DNA of 38,542 nucleotides from an archaeon (lineage in GTDB: Archaea > Micrarchaeota > Micrarchaeia > Anstonellales > Anstonellaceae), in the NCBI GenBank assembly GCA_020056635.1, contig JAGVHI010000025.1, positions 1-38,542 of the forward strand, given 5' to 3'. This document shows, in pieces, positions 24,181 through 30,422 of the stretch. The notes below the pieces were generated by a model that had not been told where the DNA came from, ran no database searches, and worked only from the letters and a program-made list of their open reading frames with translations. The number at the start of each line of letters is the position of its first letter. Within the stretch, counting starts at the first letter, position 1. Made by a program: the position numbers and the translations under genes.

Positions 24181-25506
24181 CTATTTTTTCAGCACCCGAA
24201 CCAGAATCGGCGGAACCACAAACGTAGTGAGCAATGCCATAGCTGAAATTATTGAATACTGCGCAACAGAGAGCACATTGGAGGTAAGCCCCAGGGATGC
24301 GATAATGAGCGCAACCTCCCCTCTTGGCACCATTCCCACCCCAACTGCGACTGCCTCTTTCAATTTCAATTTTGCCCAAAGTGCAGCGCCGGCGCACGCA
24401 ACAAATTTGGTTGCAAACGCAATCGCAGTGAGCGCAAGAATCGGGACCGCATACTGCCATAGCGCCCCAACATCCACAAGCAGCCCGAGCGAAATGAAAA
24501 ACACAGGCATGAACAGCAGCTCAAGCCCGTACGTCTTGTCCTCTATCTCCTTGATGTGCTTGCTCCGGTTGAGCACTATTCCGGCAAGGAACGCGCCCAC
24601 TATTGCGGAGAGCTTGATGAACTCCGCAACGTAGGCGTACATGAGCATGAGCGCAAGCACGAGCAGGAACCTTTTCGGGCTCATATCCTTCCTGTCAAGG
24701 TAATCCACGAAATATTTGCCTGCAAGCATGCTGCCTAGCAGGAACACTCCAGCTGAAAGGCCTGTTATCAAGAGCTGCCCGATTGCAAGCCCGCTATCCC
24801 CTGTCACGTTGAGCACAAATGAGAGCACGAGCAGGCCAAGCACATCATCAATCACCGCAGCCCCGATTATTATTTGCGCAAATCTTGCACCGATCAAATT
24901 AAGCTCCCGAAGCAGCGCAACCGTCACTCCCACGCTCGTGGCAGTCAGCGCGGCGCCAACGAACATGGAATAGGCAAAATCCCCCCCGCTCATGCTTGCA
25001 TACAAATACCCTGCAGCAAACGGCACAATTACCCCTGCAACTGCAACCACTATATTATCAAATGCGAATATCCCCTCGATTTTGTTGTGCAGCCCGACCT
25101 TGAACAGGAGAATCACCGCCCCGAGCTGCGCGAAAACATGTATGACCTCCTCGAACCGCAGTATGTGCGGCGGGGACGAAGGGACAGGGGCGCCAGCCAG
25201 CTTGAGCGCCCCCCACCCAACCTCAACCACGCTCGGGCTCATCAATATCCCAAGCACCATCAATATCATCACTGAAGGCTGCTTTAGGTAAACGACTGCC
25301 ACCTCGCCGAGCACCGCAAGCAGCAGCAGGAACACTATTTCGAAATAGATATGCTTTTCCGGGTCCACCTGCCCGAAAATGCTTGTGCGGACAACAGTCA
25401 TCACCAGGAGAAGGAAAACCGCAAGCATGGCGAACGGCGCAAGCCTCTCCAAGTCCTTCGGAATCCTGGAAATGTCCAGGCTCCCTGGGATATCGGCTAT
25501 CTTCAT
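24181..25506 (-). CDS. Cation:proton antiporter (CPA2/KefB-NapA type)
   Basis: 441 aa from ATG 25506 (MKIADIPGS...); about 12 TM; TATSVGVTVALLRELN...AAVIDDVLGLLVLSFV...VGAFLAGIVL...MVPRGEVALIIASLG. Upstream part of the 579-aa track ORF lacks protein-like character; TATA-like gatataaac lies 24-30 bp upstream of 25506. Confidence 0.93.
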   Translation of the reverse strand: MKIADIPGSLDISRIPKDLERLAPFAMLAVFLLLVMTVVRTSIFGQVDPEKHIYFEIVFLLLLAVLGEVAVVYLKQPSVMILMVLGILMSPSVVEVGWGALKLAGAPVPSSPPHILRFEEVIHVFAQLGAVILLFKVGLHNKIEGIFAFDNIVVAVAGVIVPFAAGYLYASMSGGDFAYSMFVGAALTATSVGVTVALLRELNLIGARFAQIIIGAAVIDDVLGLLVLSFVLNVTGDSGLAIGQLLITGLSAGVFLLGSMLAGKYFVDYLDRKDMSPKRFLLVLALMLMYAYVAEFIKLSAIVGAFLAGIVLNRSKHIKEIEDKTYGLELLFMPVFFISLGLLVDVGALWQYAVPILALTAIAFATKFVACAGAALWAKLKLKEAVAVGVGMVPRGEVALIIASLGLTSNVLSVAQYSIISAMALLTTFVVPPILVRVLKK

Positions 25507-25597
25507 GCATGTGAAAGCGCACCCGATGTTTATATCTGTTCGCAGGCGCGTTGGAGTTGGGGAAATGCATATAAATCGCGCAATTTGTAGCATGAAA

Positions 25598-25763
25598 CAG
25601 ATTTCATCTGCGGAAACGCAGGCGGAATCATTTGGCAACGGGCTTCGGATCCGCAAGGATTCCGGTATCGGCCGCATCCAAAAATGCAGCAGGCGCGGAG
25701 CCTGTACGGCATGATACTGGCCAGACCCACCAGCCCGTGCCAAACTCCGCAACCCTATCTGCG
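25598..25763 (+). ncRNA. Candidate structured RNA or structured 5' leader of the VOC gene
   Basis: TATA-like catataaat (25568-25576) about 26 bp upstream; 5-bp + 5-bp + 13-bp nested long-range helix enclosing a GNRA-capped hairpin and a second stem. Confidence 0.6.
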
Positions 25764-25799
25764 CATTAAACATTTGGATTAGATTGGAGGTTGATTTTG

Positions 25800-26180
25800 A
25801 TGGATGAGGTAGTGCATTTTGAGATTCCTGTGGACAAGCTTGCGCGCGCGAAGAAATTCTATTCAAGCGCTTTCGGCTGGAAGCTGGAGGATTATCCCCA
25901 GTTCGAGTATGTTGGGGCAATAACCACTCCGCGCGGAAAGGATCACAATCCCAAGGAGCCGGGCGCGATTAACGGCGGGATGGCAAAGCGGAACTCAGTG
26001 CTTAAATCCCCCACTGTGACCATAATGGTCAAGGACATAAATGCGTCGCTCAAGAAAGTGGTGAAATCCGGCGGAAAGGTCGCGATGAAAAAAGAGGCCA
26101 TAGGCGACATGGGCTTCATAGCCTACATAATTGACACGGAGCGGAACGTAATCGGGCTTTTCCAGGAAGCGAAAAAATAG
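25800..26180 (+). CDS. VOC/glyoxalase superfamily protein
   Basis: 126 aa from ATG 25800 with GGAGGT SD at 25786; VVHFEIPVDKLARAKKFYSSAFGWKLED...GAINGGM...DINASLKKVVKSGGKV...IDTERNVIGLFQ. Confidence 0.9.
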   Translation: MDEVVHFEIPVDKLARAKKFYSSAFGWKLEDYPQFEYVGAITTPRGKDHNPKEPGAINGGMAKRNSVLKSPTVTIMVKDINASLKKVVKSGGKVAMKKEAIGDMGFIAYIIDTERNVIGLFQEAKK

Positions 26181-26240
26181 CATGGGCCAAGCCAGGCTTC
26201 ACTCACACCTATTTTAAGCAAATCCCCGGATAATCCACAA

Positions 26241-27137
26241 GTGGAAAATGAACCCAGGGACAACCTCCGCGCCTCAAAAGCGGTGCTTGCTGCAAACGCA
26301 TTCCTTATTCTTGCCAAGCTAGTTGTTGCAATACTGACAGGCAGCATCGCAGCCATTGCGGTCCTTATCGATTCGCTGATGGACATGGTGGGCGCGCTTT
26401 TCCTCTATTTCGGGGTCAGGAAAGGGAGCGAGCCGCCAGATGTCAACCACCTTTACGGGCACAAGAAGTACGAAACAATCTCCTCAATCGCGCAGATTTC
26501 GCTCATTGCAATAGCCGCTTTCCTAATTGCAGCCGAAGCGCTCAACCGGTTTTCGCACCCGCGCGCACTTGACATCACGCTTGCAGACCTCGCAATCATG
26601 GCGGTTGCGGTCGCAGTGGACATTTGGGTCGTTTCCTACCTGAAAAAGCACGCAAACCTCGCAAGCCCTGCAATCCAGGCAAGCGTTGGCAACTATTCTT
26701 CAGACATACTGCAAAATTCCCTGGTTCTAGTCGGGCTGTTTGCAACAGGCGCCGGATTCCACATCGCCGACCCCATTGCCGCGCTCATTGTGGCATTTCT
26801 CATGTTCCGCGTGGTTTACTGGGTTGGGAAAGGGGCGTTTGGCGAGCTCACGGACATCGGCCCTCCAAAGGAGATGCTTGGGCGCTATGCACTCGCGCTT
26901 CGCAAGGTCCGTGGCGTCAAATCCTTCCACAAATTGCGCGCTCGCATTGTAGGCGGGGAAACGCTAATCGACGTGCACGTGCAGCTTTGGCCCGGGCTTT
27001 CAATCTCCCGCGCGCATGCAATCTGCGCCAGCGTGAAGCACACATTGATTGAAAAATTCCCTGAAGTGCGCGAAGTGCTCGTGCATCCGGAGCCCTATTC
27101 AGGGCCGCACAAGCGCGGGCCAAAATTCGGGAGCTAG
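26241..27137 (+). CDS. Cation diffusion facilitator family transporter (YiiP-like)
   Basis: 298 aa, GTG start; VLIDSLMDMVGALFLYFGVRKGSEPPDVNHLYGHKKYETI; TM5 NYSSDILQN; C-terminal CTD. Confidence 0.94.
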   Translation: MENEPRDNLRASKAVLAANAFLILAKLVVAILTGSIAAIAVLIDSLMDMVGALFLYFGVRKGSEPPDVNHLYGHKKYETISSIAQISLIAIAAFLIAAEALNRFSHPRALDITLADLAIMAVAVAVDIWVVSYLKKHANLASPAIQASVGNYSSDILQNSLVLVGLFATGAGFHIADPIAALIVAFLMFRVVYWVGKGAFGELTDIGPPKEMLGRYALALRKVRGVKSFHKLRARIVGGETLIDVHVQLWPGLSISRAHAICASVKHTLIEKFPEVREVLVHPEPYSGPHKRGPKFGS

Positions 27138-28776: not shown

Positions 28777-30422
28777 TTCTGCTTCCTCCCCATCTTCGAT
28801 TCAGCATCATTGCCCTCAGCAGGCGGCTGATGCTGCAGTTTCCTCCCTTTCCACTTCCTATATGCAAAATAGCCAACCACAATCACAACCACTCCGCCAG
28901 CAACCAGGAACACCGGGTTGATGCCTGCTGCCTGCGCAGTTCCCTGCCCGGCTCTTCCGCCTCCTAGCAGGAAACCAAGCGGGTTGTTCCCCCCCCTGTT
29001 CGCAAACGAATTGCTGCTGTTCCCTGCGAACCCTGCCCCTGCCGCCCCACCCGTTCTAAATGTGCTGTTGCCTCCCAAGCCCTGCTGCAGCTGGAGAGTG
29101 TTCTTCACAATGTGCTCAAGGTTGTTGCTGTCCCTGAAGCGTATCTCAACATTCACGCTCCCGGATGCCCCCGTTGGAAGCGACAATGTGGCAGTGTCAT
29201 CCACGCTCAATGTCCCCACAAAGCTCTCGGATGTTGCGCCTGCTCCGGAGCTTGCAGACGCATAGACGCTCCTTACCTGCGAATTCCCTGTATTCGCAAT
29301 CTCTATCTGGCTGTTCTGCGTGTCTATGCGCACCGTGAGCTCGGGAGTCGCTTCCACCGCAATACCTGAATTGAAGGTCGCAGTCTGGCCAGTGCTTGTA
29401 GTCAGCTTGAGCGGCAGGGAATAATACCCTGCGCTTGCTGTTGAACCAACTCCTATCGTAACATCCATGTACGCGCTTTCGCCTGCAGGAATGGAATCAA
29501 AATATGCCTTCTGCATCCCGACCGGGGTGAAAACGTCTGTCGAATTGATATCCACGGTTGCGGACATGGGAATCGAGCCCGTATTCTCGATCCCGAGCTT
29601 GAATTTCACCTGTGAGCCTATCTCGACAGTCTCCTTTGGCACGAGCGAAAGCCGGTACTGCGTCGACGCATCCAGCACGCTTATCGGGCCCACATACAAT
29701 ATCTGCTCTGAAGGCTGCTTTAGCGAATCCTGGTATGTGAACACCACTGGCACGCTGTAAGTGCCGATTTCAGTCGAAGAGGACGATGCAAGCACTAGGG
29801 TGATATTCTTCCCTGAATTCTGGGGGATGCTCCCGACCGCCTGCTGCGTTGTCCCATAAAGCGAGAACGAGGAGTTGGAGGGCATTGTTATTACGAGGTT
29901 GTTCACCACGCCCCCAGTGTTCACCAGCTCCAGCCCGACGCTCAATTTTTCTCCAGGGGCTATGGATTGGCTCCCAATCGAACTGGTCCTTGCCTCAAGC
30001 GGGTTCTGCTGCAGCACGCTCATAGGGACCGAAATCGAGGTTTTTTTGCTTGAAGTGCCTGAGCCAGATGGCTTGTATGTATAATACACATCAACTGTCA
30101 TGAGCTGTATCGACCCGCCTGCTCCCTGCGATATTTCAAACGGCACTGAAACGCGGGCAGTGGAGCCTGCGCTTATGCTTCCAACCGAGACTGCCTGGCT
30201 CGCTCCCCTCGCGGTATAATATGCGGTTGCAGATTCTGCATCCGCATCCCCCGTATTCGAAAGTGTGAGCTGCAGATAGCCCAGCGAGCCAGCATACAAC
30301 TCAGATGGCGTAGTGGTGTAATTGGTGACCTGCAAAATAGGCTCGCTGCTGGTCGCTGCGAACGCAATCCCGCCTGCTGATGCAACAACAAGCATCATTG
30401 CAAAAATATTCCCGATTTTCAT
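28773..30422 (-). CDS. COG1361-like (S-layer/NEW3-type Ig-fold) exported membrane protein
   Basis: 549 aa; signal peptide; repeated Ig-like segments (LQLTLSNTGDADAES..., VGLELVNTGGVVNN..., KLGIENTGSIPMSA...), C-terminal TM; 4-bp overlaps with both neighbours. Confidence 0.82.
   Translation of the reverse strand: MKIGNIFAMMLVVASAGGIAFAATSSEPILQVTNYTTTPSELYAGSLGYLQLTLSNTGDADAESATAYYTARGASQAVSVGSISAGSTARVSVPFEISQGAGGSIQLMTVDVYYTYKPSGSGTSSKKTSISVPMSVLQQNPLEARTSSIGSQSIAPGEKLSVGLELVNTGGVVNNLVITMPSNSSFSLYGTTQQAVGSIPQNSGKNITLVLASSSSTEIGTYSVPVVFTYQDSLKQPSEQILYVGPISVLDASTQYRLSLVPKETVEIGSQVKFKLGIENTGSIPMSATVDINSTDVFTPVGMQKAYFDSIPAGESAYMDVTIGVGSTASAGYYSLPLKLTTSTGQTATFNSGIAVEATPELTVRIDTQNSQIEIANTGNSQVRSVYASASSGAGATSESFVGTLSVDDTATLSLPTGASGSVNVEIRFRDSNNLEHIVKNTLQLQQGLGGNSTFRTGGAAGAGFAGNSSNSFANRGGNNPLGFLLGGGRAGQGTAQAAGINPVFLVAGGVVVIVVGYFAYRKWKGRKLQHQPPAEGNDAESKMGRKQK

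Follow-up and report, generated by a model that had tools for sequence, protein, structure and literature searches.

The intergenic DNA between the divergent genes of a Na+/H+ exchanger (minus strand) and a VOC protein (plus strand) in a micrarchaeal genome holds a compact, unusually foldable stretch, the best explanation of which, at a probability of roughly one half, is that it is transcribed as the structured 5' leader (~200 nt) of the VOC mRNA and is most likely a lineage-specific element acting in cis. The stretch is real as a sequence feature, and it is probably transcribed as a leader of VOC. The leader role is built on three computed properties, namely the excess of folding, the match to a promoter and the absence of a second promoter or a terminator, from which we infer transcription and a regulatory effect. 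As a candidate, the stretch is an orphan and belongs to a known kind of element rather than to a demonstrated new class of RNA. The window, which is the whole 38,542-nt stretch of DNA that was analysed, is contig C6 among the 27 contigs of an archaeal genome of 1.10 Mb (78.8% complete) that is placed in Ca. Micrarchaeota by the relatives of its antiporter, and the genomes compared include no other representative of its genus. The VOC gene is followed on its 3' side by the gene of a CDF transporter and then by MscL (Table 1).

Table 1. Features of the locus in window coordinates; p is the pair probability in the thermodynamic ensemble.
Feature	Position	Strand	Evidence
Na+/H+ antiporter gene	24181-25506	-	Na_H_Exchanger PF00999
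TATA box of the antiporter gene	25528-25537	-	10.1 bits, learned matrix
TATA box GCATATAAAT, predicted promoter of the structured transcript	25567-25576	+	best plus-strand site in 25440-25800
Predicted structured 5' leader of VOC mRNA	25598-25799	+	TATA spacing, fold excess
5' hairpin, 12 bp, two single-base bulges, GAAA loop	25600-25629	+	p 0.94-0.998
Alternative outer helices 25617-25621/25759-25763 and 25622-25626/25746-25750, disfavoured	25617-25763	+	p 0.0 and 0.06
Core domain closed by 13-bp one-bulge helix 25631-25644/25732-25744	25631-25744	+	p 1.0
GCAA-capped stem AUCC/GGAU within the core	25649-25660	+	p 0.97
Inner stem 25662-25673/25708-25720 with hairpins 25674-25687 and 25689-25705	25662-25720	+	p 0.94-1.0
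Shine-Dalgarno-like GGAGGT of VOC	25786-25791	+	sequence; unhidden by the fold
VOC (glyoxalase/bleomycin-resistance-like) gene, predicted to be served by the leader	25800-26180	+	PF22677 and PF00903 above cut-off
Separate TATA box of the CDF gene	26209-26218	+	10.7 bits; starts at -32 from the GTG at 26241

The excess of folding was evaluated by comparing minimum free energies with those of 1500 dinucleotide-preserving shuffles. The energy of 25598-25765 is -73.5 kcal/mol, against -53.7 +/- 4.1 kcal/mol for the shuffled controls (z -4.9, 0 of 1500 shuffles as stable), in agreement with the initial annotation, which had expected such an excess, and the core at 25629-25746 on its own gives z -4.4, again with 0 of 1500. 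The end points of both of these stretches were picked post hoc, and tiling of the window serves as the control: among 1828 tiles of 168 nt covering both strands, the tile nearest the stretch ranks first, with a refined z of -4.2. In a coarser 150-nt scan the rank of the region falls to 15th of 512, which implies that the folding signal needs the whole domain. The plus strand is better folded than the minus strand (z -3.7 vs -2.3), and the GC content of 0.59 in 25598-25765, compared with 0.46 and 0.29 in the two flanks, makes the stretch a GC island with the TATA box at one edge and the VOC start region at the other. The contention that the long-range pairing is improbable by chance is sound for the fold as a whole, which is unusual, but not for the length of the 13-bp helix taken alone, which is unremarkable, since chance alone predicts about 0.5 stems of such a kind in a window, against 2 observed. 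The runner-up tile, at 29191-29358 on the plus strand (refined z -4.1), is antisense to the gene of a 549-aa secreted-type protein.

All of the sequence elements on which the originally proposed structure was based are present at their coordinates, and the thermodynamic ensemble retains its inner part while replacing its outer part. The 13-bp one-bulge helix and the CAGGC hairpin both form with p 1.0 and the inner GUAUC/GAUAC stem with p 0.96, while of the GCAA-capped stem the AUCC/GGAU pairs are kept and the outer CGG/CCG pairs reach only about 0.3. The long-range helices CGCAG/CTGCG and GCGGA/TCCGC that were supposed to enclose the core, and the small CAGAT hairpin that was supposed to precede them (p 0.0), lose because the local hairpin at 25600-25629 is preferred; forcing both outer helices costs about 5.4 kcal/mol relative to the fold that contains this hairpin.

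Promoters were scored with a 10-base TATA matrix trained on the sequence upstream of 16 genes of the window and of 17 VOC or CDF orthologues, a training set that included orthologue sequences and from which the window's own VOC gene was left out. The TATA-like box noticed at the outset ahead of the stretch scores 10.4 bits with this matrix, and sites of at least 10 bits occur at only 0.16 per kb on the plus strand. The spacing found in local genes that have a box about 31 nt ahead of the start codon puts the predicted transcription start near 25598, 31 nt past the start of the box and two bases ahead of the first helix. The learned matrix finds no promoter near the VOC start, where the best site, around ATTAAACAT, scores 1.3 bits, and no plus-strand terminator-like site was found between the stretch and VOC by a scan that covers archaeal terminators poorly. 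The Shine-Dalgarno sequence GGAGGT lies 8 nt upstream of the VOC ATG, and its presence is what a leadered message should show. The initial annotation had offered a leader of VOC, perhaps shared with the CDF gene, as one of its readings; the strong TATA box, the missing promoter near VOC, the Shine-Dalgarno sequence and the uninterrupted plus strand favour the first part of this proposal, while the second part is unsupported, because the CDF gene has its own TATA box, and so the leader most likely serves VOC alone.

Taken as a structured leader, the stretch would work as follows. Transcription would start near 25598 from the TATA box, the RNA would form the 5' hairpin and the compact branched domain at 25631-25744, the transcript would continue without a terminator through the Shine-Dalgarno sequence into VOC, and the leader would then act in cis, its most likely role being in the stability or the translation of the VOC message. 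By computation, the stretch has the sense position between promoter and start codon that marks a cis-regulatory leader, and a stability beyond that given by its composition. It resembles riboswitches and other structured cis-regulatory leaders in this position, in its compact branched fold and in the Shine-Dalgarno sequence downstream, and it differs from riboswitches in that neither a ligand nor a switch is supported and the Shine-Dalgarno sequence is unhidden. The fluoride (crcB) riboswitch RF01734 is known from both bacteria and archaea (PMC2864571), and two examples are found on the minus strand of a related micrarchaeon (L039; 116-185 and 355-427, 49.5 and 34.1 bits) in a region divergent from the orthologous antiporter gene, so that structured leaders do occur in the lineage. 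The stretch itself, unlike these, has no match to RF01734 and no conservation found in relatives. A full-text literature search found no paper containing both “Micrarchaeota” and “riboswitch”, and the regulatory RNAs of DPANN archaea have seemingly been little studied.

Searches for relatives of the stretch returned only the stretch itself. The window contains no match to Rfam release 15 at the family gathering scores, and at E values up to 10 the region yields only a chance-level alignment to a nematode snoRNA, which falls inside VOC. The core was also cast as a covariance model (R1), which in 301 genomes of the phylum and the retrieved loci found its own sequence only; it was built from one sequence, and models of that sort overlook distant relatives. 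BLAST over the same 301 genomes gave no copy but only fragments of about 20-40 nt, none of the relatives keeps the antiporter-VOC-CDF gene order, there is no second copy in the available part of the genome, a search of the genome contigs with the VOC protein gave no match, and neither did a plasmid search. Several recurring or isolated matches were rejected. Those at query positions 125-148 in relatives reflect a likeness to 16S rRNA (GCAGCAGGCGCG) that was put down to chance; the 16S 515F site lies nearby at two of the loci, and others carry the same archaeal 16S sequence. The covariance model finds nothing at the 18-mer matches in viral contigs, a phage match at E 0.02 is attributed to chance, and a 40-nt match in genome G104 lies at a locus without a model match, where one reverse frame is open across it.

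A serious rival to the cis-acting leader, possible though doubtful, is that the RNA has no function, the stretch being inserted GC-rich DNA or an old inverted repeat that came to lie between the promoter and VOC, giving a passive long leader with an accidental fold. The stretch is known from one genome only, and the VOC orthologues across the phylum (41-57% identity) have a TATA box 38-60 nt upstream of the ATG in 11 of 11 scored cases (weak, at 5.1-7.0 bits, in 4 of the 11), a difference that would fit an addition of about 190 nt here; the genes of the lineage likewise mostly have a TATA box 30-45 nt ahead of the start codon. It follows from the orthologue promoters that long leaders are not characteristic of the VOC family. 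Two direct copies of the 7-base sequence ATCTGCG, at 25606 and 25757, bracket the stretch, but a flanking repeat of this kind arises in 11% of shuffles. A second tile of the window also reaches z -4.1; the fold excess of the stretch is in the far tail of the shuffles. The stretch is, moreover, single-copy, and there is no transposase nearby. It resembles MITE-like elements in being a long imperfect inverted repeat with a 7-base flanking direct repeat, and it differs from them in its copy number and in having a flanking repeat within chance expectation, so that the several copies, terminal inverted repeats and target duplication of such families were not found together. Should the leader instead prove real and conserved in the genus, the lineage, with its mostly short promoter-to-gene distances, would have in it a rare example of a large structured leader.

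A further reading, judged improbable, is that VOC is transcribed on its own and the stretch yields an independent small RNA of about 170 nt (25598 to ~25765). Such an RNA would have its own TATA box and a first helix that begins two bases past the predicted start, and the GC island stops at 25765, where it would end; against this, the plus strand has no terminator-like site after the stretch, subject to the poor coverage of archaeal terminators noted above, and the weakness of the TATA-like site ahead of VOC would leave that gene without a promoter. The established archaeal RNAs of this general form, SRP RNA (RF01857) and RNase P RNA (RF00373), are likewise GC-rich, branched and provided with a TATA box, but the stretch matches neither model, and relatives carry ordinary copies of both. 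The identification of the stretch as RNase P RNA, an idea suggested by the absence of that RNA from the genome, was ruled out by the lack of any model match at E values up to 10. The archaeal RNase P RNA model has no match in this genome, at 78.8% completeness, compared with strong matches in 17 of 19 relatives, and the SRP RNA match of the genome is weak and split, on another contig (C17:15419-15610).

There is only a slim chance that the stretch represents a new archaeal class of riboswitch or regulatory RNA, so far confined to one Micrarchaeota lineage, that controls the VOC enzyme through mutual exclusion of the 5' hairpin and the outer helices. The two ATCTGCG copies could constitute a switch design by swapping partners with CGCAG. 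A two-state switch acting on the Shine-Dalgarno sequence is nevertheless unsupported, as the repeat is of a kind seen in 11% of shuffles, the alternative fold lies about 5 kcal/mol higher in energy and the Shine-Dalgarno sequence is no more hidden than in shuffles: its mean unpaired probability exceeds the shuffled-leader mean in 6 of the 7 lengths tested, mostly within about one standard deviation. The simplest regulatory mechanism is therefore missing, since the Shine-Dalgarno sequence is not sequestered. A high accessibility of this sequence in one calculation depended on the point at which the RNA was cut.

It is least likely of all, and very unlikely in itself, that the region codes or once coded for protein: the open plus-strand frame 25379-25714, largely antisense to the antiporter start, has a DruA-like match to PF14236 (E 1.8e-4 over 111 aa, 0.019 with the part before 25508 removed), but this match was judged spurious, as its score of 21 bits is below the family cut-off of 27 and part of it comes from sequence antisense to the conserved N-terminus of the antiporter. 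NCBIfam and PADLOC give no match, phmmer reports a weak resemblance of this segment to ribosomal protein L37 (E 0.07), and among 10 spurious frames one matched another family at E 0.003. DruA was found in 0 of 59 relatives, a silence equalled in the control genomes, and the in-frame ATG at 25592 precedes the predicted transcript start.

Intergenic palindromic repeats were observed at two of the related loci, in L039 at about 400-700 (GCATCAGACCG...CGGTCTGATGC) and in L040 upstream of the antiporter orthologue (TTTCCTAGGAAA elements), and may represent a family of repeats in these genomes.
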